Assembly: GCA_016193065.1 (NCBI GenBank)
Contig: JACPSX010000289.1
Location: 1 to 13,192, forward strand
Origin: Candidatus Tectimicrobiota bacterium
GTDB lineage: Bacteria; JACPSX01
DNA length: 13,192 nt
Direction of reading: 5' to 3'
Below are positions 1,326-12,737 of the stretch, piece after piece. The notes beneath the pieces were generated by a model. The model saw only the letters and a list, made by a program, of their open reading frames with translations, was not told the origin of the DNA and searched no databases. Made by a program: the position numbers and the translations under genes. Every line of letters begins with the position of its first letter. The stretch's first letter is position 1.

Positions 1326-1759
1326 CTGAGTCAATCGCTATCGGGCTGGTCGTCGGCTTCCTCTTCTACGAGAGGATCGGATTTTCGCCGGGAGGCCTCG
1401 TTGTTCCGGGGTACGTTGCCCTTTTCCTGGATCGTCCCTTGGTGCTTTTCTGCGCTTTGGCGATCGCCTTTGTCGTCTATGGCGTGGTGCGCCTGCTCGC
1501 CGAAGTGACGATCACCTACAGCCGGCGGCGCTTTCTGCTGATGGTGATTGCCGGTTTTGGATTCCAGCGTGCTCTGGAGGCCCTGGTTTTTCCCGTCGTG
1601 CCTGCAAGCACGGAGATTCAGACGATCGGGTATATAATTCCCGGATTGATTGCGAACGACATGGACCGGCAGCGCGTCGTTCCCACGGTAGCTTCCCTCG
1701 TCATCGTGGCTGTGATCGTGCGTTTGATTCTGATCATTCTGGGTTACATGGGCCGATGA
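1319..1759 (+). CDS. pgsC: Poly-gamma-glutamate biosynthesis membrane protein PgsC/CapC
   Basis: 146 aa, the normal length for PgsC/CapC (about 149). Almost the whole protein is hydrophobic, with roughly four or five membrane segments. The first segment runs into the conserved loop SPGGLVVPGYVAL (about 23-35), which is typical of the family; a second recognisable stretch is GYIIPGLIANDM. PgsC is the obligate membrane partner of PgsB in the ligase complex. It starts inside the last codons of pgsB (7-base overlap) and its TGA overlaps the next gene's ATG by 4 bases, so the three genes are almost certainly one transcript. Confidence 0.93.
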   Translation: MLTESIAIGLVVGFLFYERIGFSPGGLVVPGYVALFLDRPLVLFCALAIAFVVYGVVRLLAEVTITYSRRRFLLMVIAGFGFQRALEALVFPVVPASTEIQTIGYIIPGLIANDMDRQRVVPTVASLVIVAVIVRLILIILGYMGR

Positions 1760-2841
1760 ACTCCGATCGGATGAGGAAGATGCGAACTTCGCGGATTCTG
1801 CTCATTGCTCTTTGCGCCGTCGCCGTCCAGCTCGGGGTGGACGGCTCCAGGGCCTTCGTGCGTGATCCCGTCCTTGAAGACATGACGGCCGCCGCGAGAC
1901 TTGCAAAACGCGCCATGGAGATCCTCAAAGAAGAAAGTGTGAAAAGGGGAATTGCGATCGATCATGGAACGGACCCGAATGAAACCGGGCTTATCGGGGC
2001 GGAGTATTCGGATCTGACCACGACGCTGGGATCGCTTGAATCCAAGAGAACATCAACAAATCCGAACTTCGCCGGGATCGTCGTGGAAATGCTTCACAGG
2101 GCTGGCGCAAAGCAAGGGGAGCAGGTCGCCGTAAGCCTTTCGGGGTCCTTTCCGGCCCTGAACGTAGCCGTATTTTCCGCGCTTCAGGTTTTGAAACTGC
2201 GACCGATTCTGATCAGTTCGGTGGGGGCCTCCGCATACGGGGCCAATGATCCAGAGTGGACATGGTTGGATATGGAAAGGAGTCTGAGAGAGAGGGAAGT
2301 GTTCCCATATGCTTCGAGAGCGGCATCGCTGGGGGGCATCGCCGAGGGCGGGGGCGGTTTGGGGGAGCACGGGATCCTGATGGGATTGGCCGCTATACAC
2401 CGAAACGGGGTTCGGCATCTGGATGAGAGAGGGTCCGCGACCCTGGGAAACGATATAAAAATCCATGTGTCGCTCTATGAGTCTGAACTGGGCAGGGAAA
2501 AACTGGCGGCGTTTATCAACGTCGGCGGCTCGTTGACGTCCCTGGGAGAATGCCGTGATGCCGGCTCCCTCCCCGTCGGTCTGGTGCTCAAGCTCCCCAG
2601 GTCGACATGTCCCGGGAGGGGGCTGATTTCGCAAATGGCCGAGAAGGGCGTACCCGTAATCCACCTGCTGAACATCAGGCGCATCGCAACTCGCTACGGC
2701 CTGCCGGTTGATCCGATCCCCCTGCCTCCCGTTCCTGACGGGAAAGCGATGAGGCCGGGTAAGTATTCTCTTCCCGTTGTCCTGACTGGACTGGTCGTTT
2801 TGTTGGCGGCATTGTCCCTTGAATTCCGGAAAAAGGACTAA
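1756..2841 (+). CDS. Poly-gamma-glutamate system protein (PgsW-like), two membrane anchors
   Basis: 361 aa. It begins with a charged N-terminus and a hydrophobic segment (about 12-28), continues with a long soluble region and ends with a second hydrophobic segment (about 337-356) followed by a short RKKD tail. The large middle domain is therefore probably periplasmic. Visible conserved-looking stretches are SLSGSFPALN (127-136), YGANDPEWTW (161-170), the glycine-rich GGIAEGGGGLGEHG (193-206) and FINVGGSLTSLG (253-264). From memory this matches the family annotated as 'poly-gamma-glutamate system protein', found beside capB/capC in proteobacteria and spirochaetes. Its biochemical role is not established. 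The 4-base ATGA overlap with pgsC ties it to the same operon. A role in polymer export, anchoring or processing is inference from position only. Confidence 0.8.
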   Translation: MNSDRMRKMRTSRILLIALCAVAVQLGVDGSRAFVRDPVLEDMTAAARLAKRAMEILKEESVKRGIAIDHGTDPNETGLIGAEYSDLTTTLGSLESKRTSTNPNFAGIVVEMLHRAGAKQGEQVAVSLSGSFPALNVAVFSALQVLKLRPILISSVGASAYGANDPEWTWLDMERSLREREVFPYASRAASLGGIAEGGGGLGEHGILMGLAAIHRNGVRHLDERGSATLGNDIKIHVSLYESELGREKLAAFINVGGSLTSLGECRDAGSLPVGLVLKLPRSTCPGRGLISQMAEKGVPVIHLLNIRRIATRYGLPVDPIPLPPVPDGKAMRPGKYSLPVVLTGLVVLLAALSLEFRKKD

Positions 2842-2861
2842 ACCTGTCACAAAAATGCCCG

Positions 2862-2910
2862 GTTTACCTCCTCCCTACACCCCTCAGGGGGGTATGGAGG
2901 AAGAGGGGAA
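2862..2910. repeat. Imperfect inverted repeat between convergent genes
   Basis: A pyrimidine-rich arm (CCTCCTCCC from 2867, then CACCCCT) faces a purine-rich arm (AGGGG near 2885, then GGAGG and AAGAGG up to about 2907). Together they can form an imperfect hairpin directly 3' of the pgs operon. It abuts the C6/G6 palindrome at 2928-2973; the two may be parts of one intergenic repeat unit. There is no T-run, so terminator action on its own is doubtful. Confidence 0.45.
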
Positions 2911-2927
2911 TTGTTGTTCGCCTTGCG

Positions 2928-2973
2928 AAATCCCCCCTTCCCCCCTTTTTAAAGGGGGGAACAGGGGGATTTT
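2928..2973. terminator. C6/G6 palindromic repeat, likely bidirectional terminator
   Basis: The left half reads AAAT-C6-TT-C6-T5 and the right half AAA-G6-AACA-G5-ATTTT, so the arms pair over about 20 bases with a very short loop. T-runs follow the stem on either strand. It lies 3 bp beyond the stop of the minus-strand phosphofructokinase gene and 86 bp after the pgs operon, the right place to end both convergent transcripts. The sequence is a member of a repeat family: a clearly related copy lies at 11921-11957. Terminator function is inferred from structure and place. Confidence 0.65.
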
Positions 2974-2975
2974 CT

Positions 2976-4136
2976 TCAGTACAGGAACATGGGCTTGTTG
3001 AGAACGCGGGTGACCTTGGGCTTGTAGTTCTCCACGTCGTACAACTCATCTATGTCCACCCGCTTCACGCCCTGCGTCAGCGTCTCGATGGGCAGGGTCG
3101 TGTACTTTCCCTCCCTTAACGCGACCATCTTGCCGTAGTCCTTCTTCAGGGCCAGATCCGTGGCCAGATTCGCAAAGCTGATCGCCACCATACGGTCCAG
3201 AGCATCGGGCTCCCCGCTCCTCATCAAATAGGCCACTTTCTGATAGACCGTACGGACGCCGAGGATTTCCTTGATGGCCTCTTCCGTCAGCGCGCCGATG
3301 CCGCCCAGCTTCCGATGCCCGTAGGCATCCTGCTGACCGTACTCGACGACGTTCCCCCCGATCATCTGTGCCCCCTCGGAAATGGTCATGATGGCGTAGT
3401 TGCTTGGATTCCTCTGTTTGTCCTCCCAGAGGAACCGGGCCAATTTGTCGGGATCGAACGGCACCTCCGAGATAATCGCCCGGTCCACCCCGGCCAGATA
3501 CGCGGAGATCAGGGACGTTTCACCGGAATTCCTGCCAAACAGTTCGACCACGGCGATGCGCTCGTGGGATCCGGCGACTGTGCGAAGCGCGGTGATGAAA
3601 TCCACGCTGCGGGTCACCGCCGTCGAGAAGCCGATACAGTAGTCAGTACCGTACACGTCGTTATCCATGGTCTTGGGGATGGCGATGATCGGGACTCCCT
3701 CCTTATGCAGGCGGAGAGAGTAACTCTGCGTATCATCGCCGCCGATGCTGATCAGCACGTCCAGCTTCAGGTGCTCGATCACCTTCAAGACGTGAAGAGT
3801 GAAATTCACTGGTTCCTTCTCCTCGAGGAGACCGTGCTCCGGCATGCGCAGGTACGCGGGGATCTCTTTTTTTTCCACCGCTGCTGGGTTGGTCCGGGAG
3901 GTATGCAGGAATGTCCCTCCCGTGCGGTCCACCGTCCGGGTGTTCGCTTTGCTCAGCGGCAACGTCAGCTTTCTACTCTGCTCGGGCGCATCGATGTTGT
4001 ACTCCAGCAGTCCCGCCCAGCCGCGTCGGATACCAATGATCTCAGCTCCTGCATCCGTCGCATGATAGACAACCGCCTTAATACAAGCGTTTAAACCGGG
4101 GACATCCCCACCGCCGGTTAAGATTCCAATTCTCAT
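2976..4136 (-). CDS. pfp: 6-phosphofructokinase, PPi-type residues
   Basis: 386 aa from the preferred start. It phosphorylates fructose 6-phosphate at C1 (cytosolic glycolysis, or the reversible PPi reaction). The phosphate-donor loop opens the protein ([13 protein letters not shown], 4-16). GGDDT (132-136) carries Asp135 where ATP-using E. coli PfkA has Gly104, and PKTMDND (154-160) carries Lys155 where PfkA has Gly124; both changes are the established marks of PPi-dependent enzymes. Asp158 is the expected catalytic base. FGRNSGE (200-206) fills the substrate-binding position. Start: the ATG at 4136-4134 is preceded by GGAGGT nine bases upstream, and the canonical domain begins at that Met. 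The frame stays open for 97 more codons upstream, to an ATG at 4427. The gene converges on the pgs operon and diverges from the molybdenum enzyme operon. Donor use is predicted, not proven. Confidence 0.88.
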
Positions 4137-4510
4137 GGTGCTTTTACCTCCAAAGACCGAACTGCGACCGGGTTCCGCCCCGGCTTTCAAGTTGCATAGT
4201 AAAAAGGTACATCGCCTTTCCTTAATTGCCACATCTTTTAGTCCTGGTTTGACCTTGAGCTCCTCAAACCTGGCTCGGTTGACCCAGGAAAATAAAGCAA
4301 TCACATCATTTACGCTTTTCCATTTTCCGGAGTAATCTTTCCCTATCCAATAAACCAAAGGACACGTCCCGATCATGCCACCCTTGCGGTACGCTTCTCT
4401 TGCTTCCCGAAGAGGATTTCTATTCATTTTTTGCGATCCTGAAGAAGTGAGTCCGACCAGGCTTTAGGGCCTGTCGGCAAAATCTGTCTGCGCGAAAGGA
4501 GGTGAAAACC
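4137..4510. other. Divergent intergenic region between pfk and the Mo-hydroxylase operon
   Basis: This 374-bp gap must hold the promoters of both divergent units. It contains the strong ribosome site of the phosphofructokinase (AGGTAAAAG on the minus strand, just above 4136), the AAAGGAGGTG of the [2Fe-2S] gene (4495-4504) and a dyad at 4453-4477. The minus-strand phosphofructokinase frame has no stop up to 4427 and has an AGGA nine bases before an ATG there, so a 97-residue N-terminal extension cannot be ruled out. I see no convincing -35/-10 pair. Confidence 0.5.
4453..4477 (+). promoter_or_regulatory. Leader hairpin or operator dyad upstream of the Mo-hydroxylase operon
   Basis: CCGACCAGGC pairs with GCCTGTCGG-type bases in a nine-pair stem with one bulged C (4458) and a TTTAGG loop. 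It ends 33 bases before the ATG of the [2Fe-2S] gene and 17 bases before its ribosome site. It could be an operator dyad or a hairpin in the leader RNA. No T-run follows it on the plus strand. Function is unknown. Confidence 0.35.
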
Positions 4511-5137
4511 ATGAAGGAAAAAGACAACGACTCCTCCAAGAAATCGTCTTTGATGACTCGCCGGACGTTCCTGAAAGGGGGAGCCCTCACAACGGCTGCC
4601 CTCTCCACCGGGGTGCTTGGGGCCGAGGTTGGTGAGGCCCACCTCGCTCTGGAAGACTATCCCTCGGCATTAAAAAGGGCCACGGTGACCCTGAAGGTGA
4701 ACGGCCTGCGCCACCGCCTGGAGGTGGAACCCAGAACCACCCTGCTGGAAGTCCTCCGGGAAGAGCTCCAGCTCACGGGCACCAAAAAGGGGTGCGACCG
4801 GGGCCAGTGCGGCTCCTGCACGGTACTGCTCAATGGCCGCCCTGTCTACTCCTGTCTGTCTCTGGCCATTGAGGCGGTGGGCAAGGAGATTCTCACCATC
4901 GAGGGGATCTCGGACGGGGAGACGCTGCACCCCGTGCAGCGGGCCTTCGTCCAGGAGATGGGGCTGCAGTGCGGCTTTTGCAGTCCGGGGCAGATCCTGG
5001 CCACCGTGGCTCTCCTGGGCAAGAACCCCAGCCCCAGCGAGGCCCAGATCCGCCAGGCCCTGGCCGGGAATCTTTGCCGCTGCGGCGCTTACCCCATGAT
5101 CTTCAAATCGGTGCAAACGGCAGCGCGCCTGCGCTAG
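4511..5137 (+). CDS. Tat-exported [2Fe-2S] subunit of a molybdenum hydroxylase (PaoA-like)
   Basis: 208 aa. The N-terminus carries a twin-arginine signal, TRRTFLKGG (16-24), then a hydrophobic Ala/Leu stretch to about 38, so the folded complex should be exported to the periplasm. A plant-type ferredoxin domain follows with C95, C100, C103 and C115 (GCDRGQCGSC), then the helical domain of the second [2Fe-2S] cluster with C154, C157, C189 and C191 (QCGFCSPGQ, LCRCGAYP). This is the electron-transfer subunit of xanthine-oxidase-family enzymes. Start: the ATG at 4511 lies eight bases after GGAGG (4498-4502); the in-frame GTG at 4502 sits inside the ribosome site and is rejected. It is the first gene of a three-gene operon. 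A Tat signal on this subunit is the arrangement known for E. coli PaoA. Confidence 0.92.
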   Translation: MKEKDNDSSKKSSLMTRRTFLKGGALTTAALSTGVLGAEVGEAHLALEDYPSALKRATVTLKVNGLRHRLEVEPRTTLLEVLREELQLTGTKKGCDRGQCGSCTVLLNGRPVYSCLSLAIEAVGKEILTIEGISDGETLHPVQRAFVQEMGLQCGFCSPGQILATVALLGKNPSPSEAQIRQALAGNLCRCGAYPMIFKSVQTAARLR

Positions 5138-5155
5138 AGAAAGGGGGGAAATCCC

Positions 5156-7351
5156 GTGGCCGAAACCTTTTCCATAATCGGAAAGCCTTTGCCACCTCAC
5201 GACGGGGCGGACAGGGTCTGCGGAAGAGCGGAGTACACCGCCGACGTAAAGCTCCCCGGTCTCCTGTACGCCAAGATCCTGCGCAGCCCTTATCCTCACG
5301 CCAGGGTGACCAAGCTGGACACCCGCAAAGCAGCGGCTCTGCCCGGGGTCAAAGCCGTTCTGACCTTCAGAGACGTGGCCGCTGTTCCCGCCGGTCCTGC
5401 CCTGGGGAAGCAGAAAAGCGTGCTTGGCGAGACGGTCCGCTTTGTCGGGGACGGCGTGGCTGCCGTAGCCGCCGTCCGGGAATCCATCGCCGAGGACGCT
5501 CTGCGGCTCATCGAGGTGGAGTATGAGCGCCTCCCCTTTGTCCTGGACCCCGAGGAAGCCCTGAAACCCGAAGCTCCCAAAATCTATCCCGAGGGGAACT
5601 TGCTCGGGGGGAAGCCGCTCGTCTTCAATCGGGGGGATGTCGAAAAAGGGTTTGCCGAGGCGGACCGGATCTTTGAAGAAACCTATACGACCCCCATTGG
5701 AGTCGGCAATGCCATGGAGCCCCGGGCCACGCTGGCTCGTTGGGAGAGGGGGAAACTGACCGTCTGGCTTTCCAGCCAGGCTCCTTTTGGGGCCAGAGCC
5801 TACCTGGCCTCAGCCCTCAAGATGCCCGAGAACCGCGTCCGCGTCATTTCCACCTATGTAGGGGGAGGCTGGGGGACAAAGGCCGGTCCCCACGGAGACG
5901 AGGCGGTCTGTGCGTTGCTGGCCAAAAAGGCCGGCGCGCCGGTTCTTCTCAACTTCACCCGAGAAGAGGAGATGCTGTGCGCCCACATCCGGTATGCCAT
6001 GAAGATGACCTTCAAGGCCGGGATCAAGAGAGACGGCACACTGACGACCCTCTCCGTGAAGATGATCGGTAATCAGGGTGCTTACGCCTCCGCCTTTGGA
6101 GATCTGGGCACCCAGGCGACCCATCTCTACCAGATCCCGAACCTGCGGACGGAGCGCTACCGGGTGCACACGAACACTCCCAGTGCAGGACCTGTGCGAG
6201 GCGTGGGGGACCCCTATGAAACCTTTGCTCTGGAGCAGCTCGTGGACATGATGGCCCACGAATTGGGCCTGGATCCGTTGCAGGTGCACCTGAAAAACAT
6301 CGTCCGCACGGGTACCGACATCGATGGCTCCAAGGTTTCCAGTTCGGGGCTGGAGGAGTGCATCCGGAAAGGAGCTGAAAAAATCCGCTGGGAAAGCAGG
6401 GGAAAACCGGGAGCCGCTGCAGGAAGCAAGAAGCGGGGCCTGGGGATGGCCCTCACGGATCGCACGGGCGGAGTCGGACCCTCGTCGGCCGTGGTCAAGA
6501 TCAACTTCGATGGCAGCGTGAACCTCCTGATGGGGGCTACCGACATCGGCACGGGGAGCCGCACTTCCATCTGCCAGGTGGTGGCCGAGGTGCTCGGCGT
6601 GGATCTAAAGGATATCACGGTGACTTCCTCGGACACGGAGATGGTCCCCTTCTGCCCCGGCACCTTTGGGAGCCGCGTCATGCATACGGCCGGCAAAGCG
6701 GCTTATGAGGCGGCGCTGGAAGCCCGAAAGAAGCTGTTTGCCGCGGCGGCATCTCAACTGAAGGCCCGGCTCGAGGAACTGGAAATCCGGGATCACGTGA
6801 TCTCCGTTCTGGGAGCGCCGGACCGCAAGATTCCACTGAAGGAAGTGACCCAGAAAGCAGGTGTCATGTTCATCGGCAGTGCCAGCACCATGCAACCCGT
6901 GAGACCGCAGACGGCAAGGCAGTACGGCGCCCAGTTTGCGGAAGTGGAGGTGGACACGGAGACCGGTCAAGTGGCGGTCCTCCGGGTGGTGGCTGCTCAC
7001 GATGTAGGAAGGGCCATCAACCCGCAAATCATCGACAATCAGATCGAAGGGGGAGTCATCCAGGGGATCGGGATGGCCTTTTCCGAGCGGCTCCTCTTCG
7101 ACCGGGCGACGGGGATTCCCCTCAACGCCGATCTCCTCGACTTCAAGGTTCCCACGATGATGGAGCTCACGGTGATCGAACCGATCCTGGTGGAGGCGAA
7201 CAACCCCTTGGGACCCTTTGGCGCCAAAGGGGTGGGAGAGGGGCCGGTCCAAATTCCCATGGCTGCCATTGCCAATGCTTTCTTTAACGCTACTGGCCGC
7301 CGGATCAAGGAGCTCCCCATGACCCGCGGCATAGTGCTGGCAGCCCTCTAG
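5156..7351 (+). CDS. Molybdopterin-binding catalytic subunit, xanthine oxidase family (PaoC-like)
   Basis: 731 aa. This is the large subunit that hydroxylates an aldehyde or N-heterocycle at a molybdenum-cytosine-dinucleotide-type centre. The N-terminal aldehyde oxidase a/b-hammerhead domain (about 15-130; RVCGRAEYTADVKLPGLLYAK) is followed by the Mo-cofactor domains with VGGGWGTK (235-242), GPVRGVG (345-351), a QGIGMAF segment and the C-terminal GAKGVGEG (689-696). Glu695 is the expected catalytic glutamate. The length suits the compact PaoC/YagR-type subunits, not the longer xanthine dehydrogenases. The CoxL signature AYRCSFR is absent, so it is not a CO dehydrogenase. It starts at GTG 5156 after AAAGGGGGG, 18 bp beyond the [2Fe-2S] gene. 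It has no signal of its own and would be carried out by its Tat-tagged partner. The substrate is unknown; aromatic aldehydes are a reasonable guess. Confidence 0.92.
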   Translation: MAETFSIIGKPLPPHDGADRVCGRAEYTADVKLPGLLYAKILRSPYPHARVTKLDTRKAAALPGVKAVLTFRDVAAVPAGPALGKQKSVLGETVRFVGDGVAAVAAVRESIAEDALRLIEVEYERLPFVLDPEEALKPEAPKIYPEGNLLGGKPLVFNRGDVEKGFAEADRIFEETYTTPIGVGNAMEPRATLARWERGKLTVWLSSQAPFGARAYLASALKMPENRVRVISTYVGGGWGTKAGPHGDEAVCALLAKKAGAPVLLNFTREEEMLCAHIRYAMKMTFKAGIKRDGTLTTLSVKMIGNQGAYASAFGDLGTQATHLYQIPNLRTERYRVHTNTPSAGPVRGVGDPYETFALEQLVDMMAHELGLDPLQVHLKNIVRTGTDIDGSKVSSSGLEECIRKGAEKIRWESRGKPGAAAGSKKRGLGMALTDRTGGVGPSSAVVKINFDGSVNLLMGATDIGTGSRTSICQVVAEVLGVDLKDITVTSSDTEMVPFCPGTFGSRVMHTAGKAAYEAALEARKKLFAAAASQLKARLEELEIRDHVISVLGAPDRKIPLKEVTQKAGVMFIGSASTMQPVRPQTARQYGAQFAEVEVDTETGQVAVLRVVAAHDVGRAINPQIIDNQIEGGVIQGIGMAFSERLLFDRATGIPLNADLLDFKVPTMMELTVIEPILVEANNPLGPFGAKGVGEGPVQIPMAAIANAFFNATGRRIKELPMTRGIVLAAL

Positions 7352-7371
7352 GCGGAAGGGAGGTGAGTGAG

Positions 7372-8346
7372 ATGAAGAGCTTTGCTTACGTTCCGGCGAC
7401 TTCCACGAAAAGCGCCGTTGCCCTTCTGGGACGGGCGCGGGGAAAAGCGAGGGTCATGGCCGGGGGGACGGACCTCCTCGGGGAGATGAAGGATAACCTG
7501 ATCAGCCCTGAACAGATTGTCGGCTTGAAGCCCGCAGCCGATCTGAACTATGTGAAGGCCGAGGCTTCCGGCCTGCGGATCGGGGCTCTGACTCCCTTGA
7601 GCGAGCTGGCCGAGCATAAGGTCGTGAGGGAACGGTACCCGATTCTCGTCCAGGCGGTCGAGCAGATTGCCACTCCACAACTGCGCAATATGGGGACCGT
7701 GGGGGGAAATCTCTGCCAGCGCCCCCGTTGCTGGTATTACCGGGGGGCCTCCTTTCCCTGCCTGAAGAAGGGGGGGGAGATTTGCTACGCCGTCAATGGG
7801 GAGAATCTCTACAACGCGATTCTGGAGGGGGGACCTTGTTACATCGTGCACCCTTCCGACTTGGCTTCTCCTCTCCAAGCCCTGGGTGCGAAGGTCAAGA
7901 TGGCGGGCCCGAAAGGGGAGCGCACAGTTCCCCTGGAGAAGTTCTTCGTTCTTCCCCGGGTCAATGCGAAGAAGGAGAACATCCTGGGGCAGGAGGAGAT
8001 TCTCACGGAGATTCAGGTGCCGGCCGTCCCCGCGACGATGCGCGGGACCTACGTGAAATTCAAGGAGCGGGGGAGCTGGGATTTTGGCCTGGTCAGCGCC
8101 GCCGCCCTGCTGGATATTCGGGACGGAATCTGTCGGGAGGCGCGCATTGTCCTGGGAGCCGTGGCGCCCGTTCCGTACCGGGCCGCGCGGGCGGAGGAGG
8201 TCCTGAAAGGGAAACGGGTGGACGAGAGGCTTGCAGCTCAAGTCGCAGAAGTGGCGGTCATGGCTGCTCGTCCTATGTCCCAGAACGCATACAAGGTCAG
8301 ACTGGCACAGGCTGCCGTGAAGAGGACGGTTCTGTCGCTGGCATAA
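7372..8346 (+). CDS. FAD-binding subunit with extra Fe-S cluster insert (PaoB-like)
   Basis: 324 aa. The FAD domain shows AGGTDLLGEM (30-39) and the pyrophosphate-binding TPQLRNMGTVGGNL (101-114), followed by the CO-dehydrogenase-flavoprotein C-terminal domain. Directly after GGNL comes an insert with cysteines at 115, 120, 130, 138 and 156 (CQRPRC, FPC, EIC, GGPC). Such an insert binds a [4Fe-4S] cluster in PaoB (YagS) and in 4-hydroxybenzoyl-CoA reductase beta, and is lacking in ordinary xanthine dehydrogenases. The Tat signal on the small subunit favours the PaoABC comparison. Start: the ATG at 7372 lies eight bases after GGAGG; the in-frame GTG at 7363 overlaps that site. The gene order (Fe-S, Mo, FAD) differs from paoA-paoB-paoC. 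No XdhC/PaoD-type Mo-cofactor chaperone follows it in the window. Confidence 0.9.
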   Translation: MKSFAYVPATSTKSAVALLGRARGKARVMAGGTDLLGEMKDNLISPEQIVGLKPAADLNYVKAEASGLRIGALTPLSELAEHKVVRERYPILVQAVEQIATPQLRNMGTVGGNLCQRPRCWYYRGASFPCLKKGGEICYAVNGENLYNAILEGGPCYIVHPSDLASPLQALGAKVKMAGPKGERTVPLEKFFVLPRVNAKKENILGQEEILTEIQVPAVPATMRGTYVKFKERGSWDFGLVSAAALLDIRDGICREARIVLGAVAPVPYRAARAEEVLKGKRVDERLAAQVAEVAVMAARPMSQNAYKVRLAQAAVKRTVLSLA

Positions 8347-8612
8347 CTTAGGAGATAACCCTGATCCGAAGAAAAGGGCGCGTTTTGCACGTGTCATCGG
8401 CCCGCAGGGCCTGTCGCCGGGGCGCCTCCTCGATTCGCGCTACGTCACCCTGACGAGGGTCCCACTTTCGCGCGGCTCTACGGAGGCATCCCGGGTACCC
8501 GCCTGGCGGGTGTCACCCGCGGGTCCGCGCTCCTCCGATGAGGGGTTCGAATTTCGGATCCGGGATGACTTATTGAGGTAACCGGTACGGGAGACCCGGG
8601 GCAAGCCCTGCC
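8347..8612. other. Intergenic region after the Mo-hydroxylase operon
   Basis: This 266-bp stretch separates two convergent units. It starts with an AGGAGAT (8350-8356) that looks like a ribosome site but is followed only by CTG, with about 30 stop-free codons, perhaps the scar of a lost fourth gene. It holds a small perfect hairpin GGCCC-GCA-GGGCC (8399-8411) and the larger palindromic block at 8481-8537. No intact gene or tRNA is seen. Confidence 0.5.
8481..8537. repeat. GC-rich nested palindromes, REP-like
   Basis: CGGAGG (8481-8486) pairs with CCTCCG (8532-8537), enclosing CCCGGGTACCC, the perfect stem ACCCGC-CTG-GCGGGT (8497-8511), GGGTGTCACCC (8508-8518) and ACCCGCGGGT. The dense, mutually exclusive dyads are typical of REP-type intergenic elements and may also act as a transcription end between the two convergent units. 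It shares the GGGTACC...GGCG...ACCC order with the element at 9658-9740, but the kinship is uncertain. Confidence 0.45.
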
Positions 8613-9434
8613 CTAAGAAAACGCCACATCCAGCACCATCATGACCGTAAATCCGGACATCAGGCCCATGGTGGCCAGATCGCCGTATCCGCTGCGCTGG
8701 GATTCGGGCACGACTTCCTCTACCACCACGAAGATCATGGCCCCTGCGGCAAACGCCAGGGCATAGGGCAGGATCGGCCTGGCGAGGAGTACGGCGGCGG
8801 CTCCGAAAACGCCGGCTATGGGTTCCACCACGGCCGACAGCTGCCCGTACCAGAAGCTTTTCAAACGGGACACGCCCTCCCGGCGCAGGGGCATGGCCAC
8901 CGCCATTCCTTCCGGGAAGTTTTGCAGGCCGATGCCGATGGCCAGCGCGATGGCGGCGGGCAGCGTGGCCGAAGAGAGACCCGCGGCGACCGCTCCGAAG
9001 GCAACGCCCACGGCCAGCCCCTCGGGGATGTTGTGCAAGGTGATGGCAAGGATCAGCAAAGTCGTCCGGCGCCAGGAGGTCGAGATGCCTTCCGCCTCCT
9101 CCATGGGAAAGTTCAGATGGAGATGGGGCAGAATCTTGTCGATCAGTTGCAGGAAACCGCCTCCCAGGAGAAAACCTACGGCGGCGGGGAACCAGACCGG
9201 CAGACCCTGTCCTTCCGACATCTCGAGGGCCGGAGCCAGCAAAGACCAGTAGCTGGCGGCGATCATCACTCCCCCGGCGAAACCGAGCGTCACGTCCAGA
9301 ATCTTCCGATTCATGTTCCTGGTGAAAAAGACTCCGGCGGCTCCGAGAGCCGTCAGCAGCCAGGTAAAGCACGTGGCCAGGAAGGCTTGCGTCACGGGAG
9401 AAAAAGACTGGAAGGCGGCATAGATGGTTTCCAT
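8613..9434 (-). CDS. ZIP family divalent metal transporter (GufA/ZupT-like)
   Basis: 273 aa with about eight hydrophobic segments, the usual bacterial ZIP size. The metal-binding motifs are in their proper places: HNIPEG in TM4 (134-139), QNFPEG in TM5 (171-176), VVEP in TM6 (202-205) and VVEEVVPES in TM7 (237-245). ZIP proteins bring zinc, iron or related divalent metals into the cytoplasm; the metal here cannot be read from the sequence. The variable loop (about 101-121) holds HLHL and several acidic residues, a usual place for metal-binding histidines. The ATG at 9434 is preceded by AAGGA. The gene points toward the Mo-hydroxylase operon and away from the cupin gene. It appears to be a single-gene unit. 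Confidence 0.93.
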   Translation of the reverse strand: METIYAAFQSFSPVTQAFLATCFTWLLTALGAAGVFFTRNMNRKILDVTLGFAGGVMIAASYWSLLAPALEMSEGQGLPVWFPAAVGFLLGGGFLQLIDKILPHLHLNFPMEEAEGISTSWRRTTLLILAITLHNIPEGLAVGVAFGAVAAGLSSATLPAAIALAIGIGLQNFPEGMAVAMPLRREGVSRLKSFWYGQLSAVVEPIAGVFGAAAVLLARPILPYALAFAAGAMIFVVVEEVVPESQRSGYGDLATMGLMSGFTVMMVLDVAFS

Positions 9435-9795
9435 TGCTCATTCCTTTTTCACGGCGGATGACCCGGCGACGAGGATTCGACTCCTTGCATGAAAGATTCC
9501 ATGTGCGCCTCGCCTGCGCGACGGATCATTGTATAAGAAAAGGGATCTATTTCCTATCGCGTCGTTCCCCGGGCCACAAGCAGAAAATTCCCCATTGACT
9601 TTCTTCGCCCCCAGATGCAATCTCCTCACGAAGCAATTCCTATCTAAATTATAAATTCCCTCTCCGCACGCCCAGGGTACCCCGGGGGCCCTTTGGGCGT
9701 TGCCACCCGGGGTACCCGGGGAGAGGGCAGGGTGAGGGGGCAGCACAGCGCGGCGTGCGTATCGCTGCAATGCGCGGTCGCGTGGAGTGGAGAAC
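9435..9795. other. Divergent intergenic region between ZIP transporter and cupin gene
   Basis: This 361-bp gap should hold the promoters of both divergent genes. It has AT-richer pockets (TTGTATAAGAAAAG at about 9534; TCTAAATTATAAATTCC at about 9643) that could contain -10 boxes, and a TTGACT at 9595-9600, but no pair with clear spacing. The right third is the palindromic repeat at 9658-9740. No gene is recognised. Confidence 0.45.
9658..9740. repeat. Compact GC-rich intergenic palindrome element
   Basis: The outer arms CCCTCTCC (9658-9665) and GGAGAGGG (9720-9727) are exact complements. Inside them GGGTACCCC (9675-9683) pairs perfectly with GGGGTACCC (9709-9717), and the tip holds GCCC-TTT-GGGC (9688-9698). 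A purine-rich tail (GCAGGGTGAGGGGG) follows. The nested design, with little unpaired sequence, is that of a dispersed intergenic repeat rather than a simple terminator. It sits 56 bp upstream of the cupin start. Confidence 0.6.
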
Positions 9796-10353
9796 ATGAC
9801 GGGAAAGATCAGACGAGTGGTGACCGGACATGACCCGGCAGGCAAGGCCGTCGTCACGCGCGACGGCGCGGCAACCAACGTCAGGGTCCGGAAAGCGGCG
9901 GGCGGGCTGGTCTCGACGCTGATCTGGGCGACGGACGAAACACCGGCCGATATTTCCGGAAGCGCCGACCGCGCCGCGCGCGAGAGCGGCGTGGCTCCGC
10001 CGGCCAGGGGATCGGTCTTTCGAATCGTGGATTTTCCCCCGACGGACGAATCGCTCCTGCAGGACCACGAAGCGGTCACGCGGGAGATGGGGCTCGGTCA
10101 CGGCGGCGCGCCGGCGCGGCATCCCCTCATGCATCGCACGAGGAGCGTCGACTACGCGATCGTGATGTCCGGCGAAATCGACATGCTGCTCGACGACTCC
10201 GAGGTCCACCTCCAGGCCGGCGACGTCGTGGTGCAGCAGGGGACGAACCATGCGTGGGTCAACCGCGGCAAGGAAAACTGCCGGATCGCCTTCGTGCTGA
10301 TCGACGCCAGCGAACCAGCGGATACGGGGAAATCGGAAAAGCAGGGGGACTGA
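9796..10353 (+). CDS. Cupin-domain protein of unknown function
   Basis: 185 aa. A less conserved N-terminal part (1-75) precedes a single cupin barrel (about 100-170). The second cupin motif is clear: GDVVVQQGTNHAWVN (142-156), with His152 and Asn156. The first motif is atypical: HRTRSVDYAIVMSGEI (113-128) has one His and an Asp in place of the usual HxH...E, a pattern I recall as normal for this cupin group. Metal binding and activity are therefore uncertain. Start: the ATG at 9796 lies eight bases after GGAG (9784-9787); the GTG at 9787 overlaps it. The hydrolase pseudogene begins 23 bp downstream on the same strand, so the two were probably one operon. Such cupins often sit in aromatic-compound gene clusters, but no substrate can be named. 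Confidence 0.82.
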   Translation: MTGKIRRVVTGHDPAGKAVVTRDGAATNVRVRKAAGGLVSTLIWATDETPADISGSADRAARESGVAPPARGSVFRIVDFPPTDESLLQDHEAVTREMGLGHGGAPARHPLMHRTRSVDYAIVMSGEIDMLLDDSEVHLQAGDVVVQQGTNHAWVNRGKENCRIAFVLIDASEPADTGKSEKQGD

Positions 10354-10376
10354 AAACACAGTGAAGGGAGAGGCAA

Positions 10377-11842
10377 GTGAGCACCCAGGATTGGCAACAA
10401 CACGTTTCGCAGCCGCAATACTCGATGGTCGAGGAAAAAAACCGCTTCGTCGCCATGCGCGACGGCGTCCGCCTGGCCTGCGACATCTACCGGCCGGATG
10501 CCCCGGGCCGGAAATTCCCGGCGCTGCTGTCGACGTCTCTCTATGGCAAGGACGTGCAGAAGGTCACCGACGAGCGGCGCCCCTTGAGCCCGCGCCACGG
10601 CAACGGGGGGCAGGAAGCGGGAGACACGCGCTTTTTCGTGAGCCGCGGTTACGTCCATGTGGTCGCGGGCGCCCGCGGCGCCGGAGATTCCGAGGGTATC
10701 AGGGCGGGCTCTTCAATGAGGGGTTCTATCACCAGTGGTGGGGACACGTGAGCATCGGCACCATGCGGCCCCTCACGTTCAATTATTATTCCGAGGAGGA
10801 AATTCGCCGCCGCGTCGAGGCTTTGATGAAGACCCCGGAAATCCAGGACAGCCCCTTCCTTTATATCCATTTGAAGTATCCGGAAAAAAGCCCGCTGATC
10901 TTCGACTTCCTGATCGAGCCGAACGACGGTCCCTATTACTGGGAGCGCTCGGCCTACCGGAGGTTCGACCGCATCAAGATCCCGGTGCTGCTGATGGTGC
11001 GCTGGAGCGCCTGGGACATCCATCTTCCCGGCGCCTTCCAGGCGTGGGAGGGTCTCGACACCATCAAGAAGATGATCATCTTCGACTCTCTGGAAGCGAC
11101 GGGCCCGAGACGCCCCTGGCGCGATCACCAGGACATCATCCTGCGCTGGTACGACCACTGGCTCAAGGGCAACGACACGGGGATGATGGACGAGCCCCCG
11201 ATCCGCATCCTGGTGAAGGGCACGAACGAGTGGCGCGACGAGCACGAATGGCCGCTCCAGCGCACGCAGTGGACCAGGTTCTGGCTCCAGCCCGGCGGCG
11301 GGCTTTCGACCACTCCGGGCGGCGAGGACAAACAGACGTTCACGAACGATCCCTTCCTTCTTCCGGGCAAGACCTCTCCCTGTGTGAAATTCTCCACACC
11401 CGCGCTGGACAGCGAGCTGGAAATCACCGGTCCGGCGGCTCTCTACCTATTCGCGTCGATCGACCGGCCGGAAGCGGCCTGGATCGTCAACGTCAAGGAC
11501 CAGGCCCCGGACGGCAGCACGCGCATGGTCACCAAGGGCTGGCTGCGCGCCTCGCACCGCAAGCTCGATCCGTCCCGCTCCAAACCCTACAAGCCCTATC
11601 ACCCGCACGACGAGAATGTGCCGGTGCCGGTGAACGAAGTCGTCGAATACGCGATCGAGCTGCGGGATATGTCCATGGTGTTCCAGAAAGGGCACCGTCT
11701 CGTTCTGGAGATCCGGGCGCAGGACGCGCTGGTCGAAGAGCCGATCTGGTATCACCAGACGAGCGCGCTGGTGACGAACCACACCGTCCACTGCGGAGGC
11801 GCGCACGCGTCGTACCTGCTGCTGCCCGTGATCCCGAGGTAA
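10377..11842 (+). pseudogene. CocE/NonD (X-Pro dipeptidyl-peptidase S15-like) hydrolase, internally deleted and frameshifted
   Basis: Translation starts at GTG 10377 after GGGAGAGG (10366-10373). The first frame gives the normal N-terminus: MRDGVRLACDIYRPDA (27-42), SLYGKDV with the likely oxyanion Tyr, and GARGAGDSEG (98-107). Just after the Gly codon at 10695-10697 the homology jumps to GGLFNEGFYHQWW in a different frame (from 10703). That frame then runs cleanly to TAA 11840-11842, with the late alpha/beta-hydrolase part (SAWDIHLPG; ILRWYDHWLKG) and the C-terminal jelly-roll domain (KGHRLVLEIRAQD, LLLPVIPR). The family has 70-90 more residues between these points, holding the nucleophile Ser (GxSxxG); I see no such motif. 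Both the frame change and the missing active site argue for a dead gene. A mis-assembly is the main alternative. Confidence 0.85.
11814..11841 (+). repeat. 28-bp direct repeat, copy 1 (3' end of the hydrolase gene)
   Basis: These 28 bases encode LLLPVIPR and the first two bases of the stop codon of the CocE-like gene. They recur without a mismatch at 12667-12694. The following 20 bases also agree at 14 positions between the copies, so the shared part once reached beyond the gene end. Upstream of the exact repeat the two copies do not match. Confidence 0.9.
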
Positions 11843-11955
11843 TCGCCGCACCCTAGTGTCCTGAGTCAGAAATCCGCGCACGAAGTTCCCCTCTCCCCCA
11901 GCGGGCATAAGCGCTAACATAACCCCCCTTTGGAAAAGGGGGGGCAGGGGGGATT
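11843..11955. other. Spacer after the hydrolase pseudogene
   Basis: This short non-coding spacer follows copy 1 of the 28-bp repeat. It holds TAGTGTCCTGAGTCAG (from about 11854), a C-rich CCCCTCTCCCCCA (about 11889-11901), and the C6/G7 palindrome at 11921-11957, which leads straight into the DUF6883-like pseudogene. I see no gene in it. Confidence 0.5.
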
Positions 11956-11957
11956 TT
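11921..11957. repeat. C6/G7 palindromic repeat, second copy of the 2928 family
   Basis: AACCCCCC (11921-11928), a TTTGGAAAA loop, then G7 (11938-11944), CA, G6 (11947-11952) and ATTTT. The right half reproduces the order G6-(spacer)CA-G5-ATTTT of the element at 2928-2973; the outer left arm (AAAT-C6-TT) is missing here. Its right end touches the likely TTG start of the DUF6883-like pseudogene, so the repeat has replaced the normal upstream sequence of that gene or supplies its G-rich ribosome-binding area. Confidence 0.65.
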
Positions 11958-12215
11958 GAGGATTGACAGGGAGAAATTGACCAGTTACCTTCTTTCTCCT
12001 ACGCATCCTGTCGGCCGTTCGAAAGCGAAGAAACACTTCTCTCCATTGCCCGGGCCAGCGCGGTGGGGTCAACTCGTTCCTCCGCATATGGGATGAAGTA
12101 TGCAGTGGATGGAACAGTCCGTGCTCCGGCAGGAGCAGAGGTCTTTGTGTGAACCGTGTGGGTCATCGAATCCGGAAAAACCCGCCCGCGGTTTGTCACC
12201 GCCTATCCTCGATAG
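11956..12215 (+). pseudogene. DUF6883-like protein gene, broken by deletion, frameshift and a stop
   Basis: From TTG 11956 one frame reads RIDREKLTSYLLSPTHPVGRSKAK, the typical start of this small-protein family. Near 12030 the homology moves to another frame (EETLLSIARA, then YGMKYAVDGTVRAP) and about 15 family residues seem missing between the two parts. The second frame continues to a TGA at 12150-12152. After it, in the same frame, comes the normal tail TVWVIESGKTRPRFVTAYPR, ending at TAG 12213-12215. The family usually has Arg before TVW, so the TGA fits a CGA-to-TGA change. The intact DUF4926 gene begins 20 bp later, matching the pairing I recall for these two families. The family name is from memory; the function is unknown. 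Two independent lesions make sequencing error less likely. Confidence 0.75.
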
Positions 12216-12235
12216 GCGCCCTGGAGGCTAGGAGT

Positions 12236-12463
12236 ATGCGAGCGCTCGATGCCGTGGTTCTGACACATGATATCCCCGAACATGGATTAAAGGAAGGTGA
12301 CGTTGGGGCGGTCGTGCATCGTTACGAGGAACGGGACGCTTTCGAGGTGGAGTTTGTGACCGCCGAGGGGAAGACCGTGGCTGTTCTCACCCTGAAGGAA
12401 TCCGACCTGCGGCTCATGGAAGGGGATGAGATACTCCACGTGCGGCAGATGGCCTCGGCCTGA
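12236..12463 (+). CDS. DUF4926 domain protein
   Basis: 75 aa, the full length of a DUF4926 protein: DAVVLTHDIPEHGLKEGDVGAVVHRY, then FEVEFVTAEGKTVAVLTLKESDLRLM. The small all-beta domain resembles SH3-like folds. The ATG at 12236 lies eight bases after GGAGG (12223-12227); the open frame reaches further up to 12149, but those codons overlap the end of the DUF6883-like gene and are not family-like. It is normally the downstream partner of a DUF6883 gene, which is broken here, so this copy is either an orphan still in use or not yet decayed. A toxin-antitoxin-type role has been suspected for such small pairs, but nothing in the sequence proves it. Confidence 0.85.
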   Translation: MRALDAVVLTHDIPEHGLKEGDVGAVVHRYEERDAFEVEFVTAEGKTVAVLTLKESDLRLMEGDEILHVRQMASA

Positions 12464-12591: not shown

Positions 12592-12666
12592 TCCCGTTTC
12601 CCGCGCGTCCCCGGCAGCACTCGCTTGAGCAACGTCGCGCCTTGTTCGCGGCTCCAGCTCCGTGGC

Positions 12667-12694
12667 ACCTGCTGCTGCCCGTGATCCCGAGGTA
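12667..12694 (+). repeat. 28-bp direct repeat, copy 2 (orphan hydrolase gene tail)
   Basis: These bases are identical to the last 28 bases of the CocE-like gene (11814-11841) and again encode LLLPVIPR, here ending in TAG (12693-12695). The preceding codons (APAPWH) do not match the hydrolase, so only the tail is present. It may be the scar of a second hydrolase gene, or a duplicated end made when the 853-bp segment between the copies arrived. Confidence 0.9.
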
Positions 12695-12737
12695 GGCGCC
12701 GTGCCATAGTTTCCCGGCGGCCCGCCGCGAGGCTTGT

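Follow-up and report, generated by a model that had tools for sequence, protein, structure and literature searches.

The CocE/NonD family (TIGR00976) comprises alpha/beta hydrolases with an N-terminal Peptidase_S15 domain (PF02129) and a C-terminal PepX_C domain (PF08530); cocaine esterase (1JU3) is one example. In that enzyme Asp259, in the GWYD motif, is taken here to be the catalytic aspartate. Structures 3IB3 and 3III represent a CocE/NonD protein of Staphylococcus aureus; nothing was found in the literature on the 3IB3 protein. Ser117 and His287 are listed as residues of cocaine esterase (PMC7034887). With regard to gene inactivation, 346 of 378 Salmonella pseudogenes carried one inactivating mutation, and deletions of no more than 20% of the ORF were the commonest type among these (PMC2916853).

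The window (the whole stretch of DNA that was analysed) was contig C235, 13,192 bases long, from a draft genome of 2.9 Mb that consists of 294 contigs and is 86% complete. When relatives were sought, none of 97 other genomes was nearer to the window genome than the same domain. One gene of the window resembled cocaine esterase in its domain order, in the motifs of both halves and in its conserved C-terminal domain; in contrast to cocaine esterase, it lacked the nucleophile segment and its frame was broken. It shared with the S. aureus protein a larger clade (support 0.97) and an LHxxG motif replacing GWYD, but that protein is full length and has its serine in GVSYL. We consider it probable that the window gene is a pseudogene, formed by one recent inactivating deletion in the sole copy.

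Two parts of one gene in different frames

The broken gene and its upstream neighbour were arranged as follows.

9787-10353, + strand: cupin-domain gene (PF07883, E = 1.4e-8), directly 5' of the broken hydrolase gene with a gap of 23 bases
10377-10697, + strand: N-terminal part of the CocE/NonD (Peptidase_S15) hydrolase gene, the first 107 codons, read from the GTG start at 10377
10695-10703, + strand: apparent deletion junction, where the GGT codon (10695-10697) passes to the codons TAT-CAG-GGC (10697 onward) with a change of frame
10698-10751, + strand: out-of-frame tail of the N-terminal ORF, from the sequence and the ORF list, with ~18 nonsense codons and TGA at 10749-10751
10703-11842, + strand: C-terminal part of the same gene in the other frame, with the remaining hydrolase domain, the PepX_C jelly-roll and the stop

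The N-terminal part matched the Peptidase_S15 profile (PF02129) at positions 1-71 of 262 (E = 3.8e-14; 53 bits against a cut-off of 23) and TIGR00976 at positions 1-72, and a purine-rich GGGAGAGG was present immediately 5' of the GTG start at 10377. The C-terminal part matched TIGR00976 at positions 142-365 (123.5 bits; cut-off 66.3) and PepX_C (PF08530; E = 2.3e-36, 126 bits); it contained no internal stop from 10703 through 11839 and ended naturally as LLLPVIPR followed by the stop at 11842. With its N-terminal Peptidase_S15/TIGR00976 and C-terminal PepX_C matches, the gene belongs to the CocE/NonD sequence family. It does not have the one uninterrupted frame that a functional member requires: the frame changes at 10697 and a stop follows at 10749-10751. 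Codon-position GC in both halves was similar to that of the neighbouring genes.

The closest intact relative that was found, L032 (gene at 5467-7119), came from a MAG labelled Desulfobacterales. The N-terminal part was 61% identical to it (60/98 aligned positions) and the C-terminal part 51% (362 aligned columns). When the L032 protein was searched against the window genome by tblastn, residues 4-108 aligned with 10386-10703 and residues 176-549 with 10694-11836, side by side; at E-values up to 10, neither a second copy nor a separate middle segment was detected elsewhere in the genome. The two halves belonged to the same family, had the same best relative and lay in the correct order, 5 bases apart, and a match of both halves by chance is excluded by the E-values. 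An earlier note on this DNA had located the junction correctly, the N-terminal match ending at 10697 and the match resuming at 10703; the T at 10697 can be assigned to either side.

The cupin gene and the broken hydrolase gene are likely to lie on one transcript. A strong imperfect palindrome (9657-9735), with 30-nt arms that are 77% complementary, is situated 5' of the cupin gene. Downstream, positions 11808-11861, which consist of the final ~35 bases of the hydrolase gene and ~20 bases 3' of it, recur at 12661-12714 with 85% identity, 853 bases apart. No hydrolase sequence lies 5' of this second copy of the 3' end, which may be the scar of an earlier tandem copy or of a rearrangement, and a small DUF4926 gene (12149-12463) stands between it and the broken gene. 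An intergenic repeat (11853-11960) has nearly 30 partial copies genome-wide, several of them close to contig ends. Searches of viral contigs and of Rfam gave no match, and the plasmid matches were confined to short stretches of ordinary CocE/NonD genes.

Extent of the missing segment

In the alignment the window gene skipped from G106 to G179 of L032, leaving 72 residues absent, including the GLSYF nucleophile (Ser142); across the nearest clade the gap was 72-74 residues. No GxSxxG-type nucleophile motif was present in the window gene, the aligned segment being gone. The inferred loss was ~211 bases relative to L032 (3 x 72 - 5, as 5 bases remain between the matched codons), which is of class 3n+1, and 211-217 bases relative to the nearest clade, or ~12-13% of the ORF. 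Compared with its intact homologues, the gene is disrupted and essential parts have been removed. The profile matches, the tblastn search and the alignment with L032 bore out the earlier proposal of a deletion over the nucleophile segment accompanied by a change of frame, and the proposed absence of 70-90 residues, of size 3n+1, agrees with the values obtained here.

The homologue alignment comprised 66 other family members, including 1JU3 and 3IB3, and the segment, 68-85 residues long, was present in 64 of them. The exceptions were L060, whose gene is truncated at the edge of its contig, and L063, where the break lies farther towards the 3' end and the serine motif GDSYLA is still encoded in another frame. 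Homologues that lack the segment by nature, a possibility raised by the earlier note, were not found among the 66 members. In the CocE/NonD gene of L063 (260-1200, from a different MAG) the frame is broken after the serine motif and before GGWYD; this gene is either an independent broken copy or an assembly error.

AlphaFold gave a poor model of L032 from an alignment of eight sequences (mean pLDDT 50.7), and this model was not used to place an alternative histidine. Its predicted secondary structure suggests that the lost part may cover the helix at residues 113-127, the strand at 132-138 and the helix at 141-154.

Origin and age of the disruption

According to the pseudogene reading, an intact CocE/NonD-family alpha/beta hydrolase gene would have lost ~211 bases (3n+1) in one event, between codon 107 and the codons for GGLFNEGF. 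The lost piece would have encoded a helix, a strand, the nucleophile elbow with its serine and the next helix of the hydrolase core. Translation would stop ~18 codons beyond the junction, at 10751, to give a 124-residue product that is predicted to be unable to adopt the hydrolase fold, and no C-terminal domain would be made in frame. The flanks are still gene-like, and the event would be too young for stops and frameshifts to have built up. We infer that the deletion occurred in the organism and not in the assembly, and that no functional product is made.

In the tree of the C-terminal part, the terminal branches were equal (0.583 for the window gene and 0.569 for the intact L032) and the outgroup-match counts of the two were nearly alike. 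From the equal branches it follows that nearly all of the divergence built up under constraint and that the deletion came late. Within the C-terminal part 3.8% of single substitutions create a stop, and ~3 stops would be expected at 7% neutral divergence per site; its 379 codons contained no stop and no frameshift, consistent with the recent event suggested earlier. The flanks are well preserved because the deletion is recent, and no selection on the jelly-roll domain is needed. The earlier suggestion of selection on the C-terminal domain was not upheld, since the window branch was no shorter than that of its intact sister and an open frame is expected in a young pseudogene. Such selection could nevertheless be acting, since too little time has passed after the deletion for the sequence to reveal it, and an undecayed C-terminal part, which is expected under constraint as well, is one argument against a pseudogene.

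The single-deletion pseudogenes of Salmonella (PMC2916853) resemble the window gene in having one inactivating deletion of <20% of the ORF and otherwise intact flanks, and by analogy a loss of ~12-13% would be typical of that class. They differ in that the window case rests on one assembly and is not matched by an intact sister strain.

The reliance on one draft assembly, 86% complete and split into 294 contigs, also counts against the pseudogene reading. The gene of the main population could be intact and the 211-base gap could derive from assembly or binning, or from one strain, an explanation that we regard as unlikely. It is favoured by the metagenome-like character of the draft, by the termination of several contigs inside repeats, which indicates an imperfect assembly, and by the very well preserved flanks of the junction. 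However, there was no repeat or second copy at the junction to mislead an assembler: the 121 bases around it had no second genomic place, the best other match having an E-value of 0.3. The lost piece was absent elsewhere in the assembly, and the other searched genes of the contig were single open frames matching their own families, except for the gene at 1756-2841, for which no Pfam family was matched. As a biological deletion, the plain loss of 211 bases with no repeats on its flanks is usual; as an assembly error it is unusual.

The pseudogene reading also has to be weighed against the open C-terminal frame, which extends over 493 codons (10361-11842) and has a GTG (10748-10750) over the TGA of the N-terminal frame (10749-10751), so that a C-terminal fragment could be made. 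Restart at GTG 10748 after the TGA would yield a 364-residue non-catalytic binding protein, composed of the back half of the hydrolase and the jelly-roll, from a split but useful locus. The GTGA stop-start overlap (10748-10751) is the arrangement of translational coupling, the frame is open as far as its natural stop and the C-terminal part shows no excess divergence; but the Shine-Dalgarno-like match before the GTG was weak (GGTG only), the overlap is obtainable by chance from the frame change and none of the 66 homologues was built as a C-terminal fragment. Furthermore, such a fragment would be without the N-terminal strands and the nucleophile-elbow elements of the core sheet, and the remaining hydrolase part should therefore not fold. 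We judge a retained fragment of this kind to be quite improbable. We give very little credence to the more specific proposal that the clade is drifting from Ser-His-Asp catalysis and that here the catalytic half was discarded and the re-initiated C-terminal fragment kept as a non-enzymatic binder. A natural short form of the family, with its halves joined by programmed frameshifting, is scarcely credible: the sequence near the junction is open in both frames, but no homologue naturally lacks the segment, no frameshifting motif was noticed at the junction on non-systematic inspection and the fold of the joined product would be without the nucleophile elbow.

Catalytic residues in the surrounding clade

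When Ser117, His287 and Asp259 were mapped onto the alignment, GWYD and GPWxH were present in most of the family. GWYD was absent from a clade of 16 (support 0.97) that includes the window gene and 3IB3. An inner clade of eight (support 0.99), comprising the window gene, L032, L033, L003, L021 and L034-L036, had also lost the histidine, with RPW or similar in its place. The window gene has GPRRPW at the GPWxH position and SAWDIHLPG at the GWYD position, and so does not carry the histidine and aspartate of cocaine esterase. In L034-L036 a cysteine replaces the nucleophile serine, and in L032, L033, L003 and L021 a histidine is kept in an [ILM]H-x-x-G motif.

Unlike cocaine esterase, then, the intact relatives in this clade lack the GWYD aspartate and the GPWSH histidine positions, and since they do so the broken gene was probably no textbook Ser-His-Asp hydrolase. 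Judged from these sequences, the textbook triad was probably altered in the clade before the deletion. The earlier note had described the loss of the active-site serine; the serine segment is indeed gone, but the notion of a previously intact catalytic site overlooks the clade's prior lack of the canonical aspartate and histidine.

In L032 the CocE-like gene is flanked by two UbiD-family decarboxylase genes (3939-8742), and in L033 (1640-5038) the CocE-like gene (1640-3334) is followed by one UbiD-family decarboxylase gene. This proximity suggests that the CocE-like gene and its UbiD-family neighbours share a pathway.

The main consequence of the pseudogene reading would be one of annotation, namely that two adjacent ORFs should be treated as one disrupted gene and not as two proteins. 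The erosion of the triad in the intact homologues may matter more than the pseudogene. For a full-length, well supported clade without the canonical histidine and aspartate, most members of which have [IL]HxxG, an automatic "hydrolase" label is to be regarded as putative.
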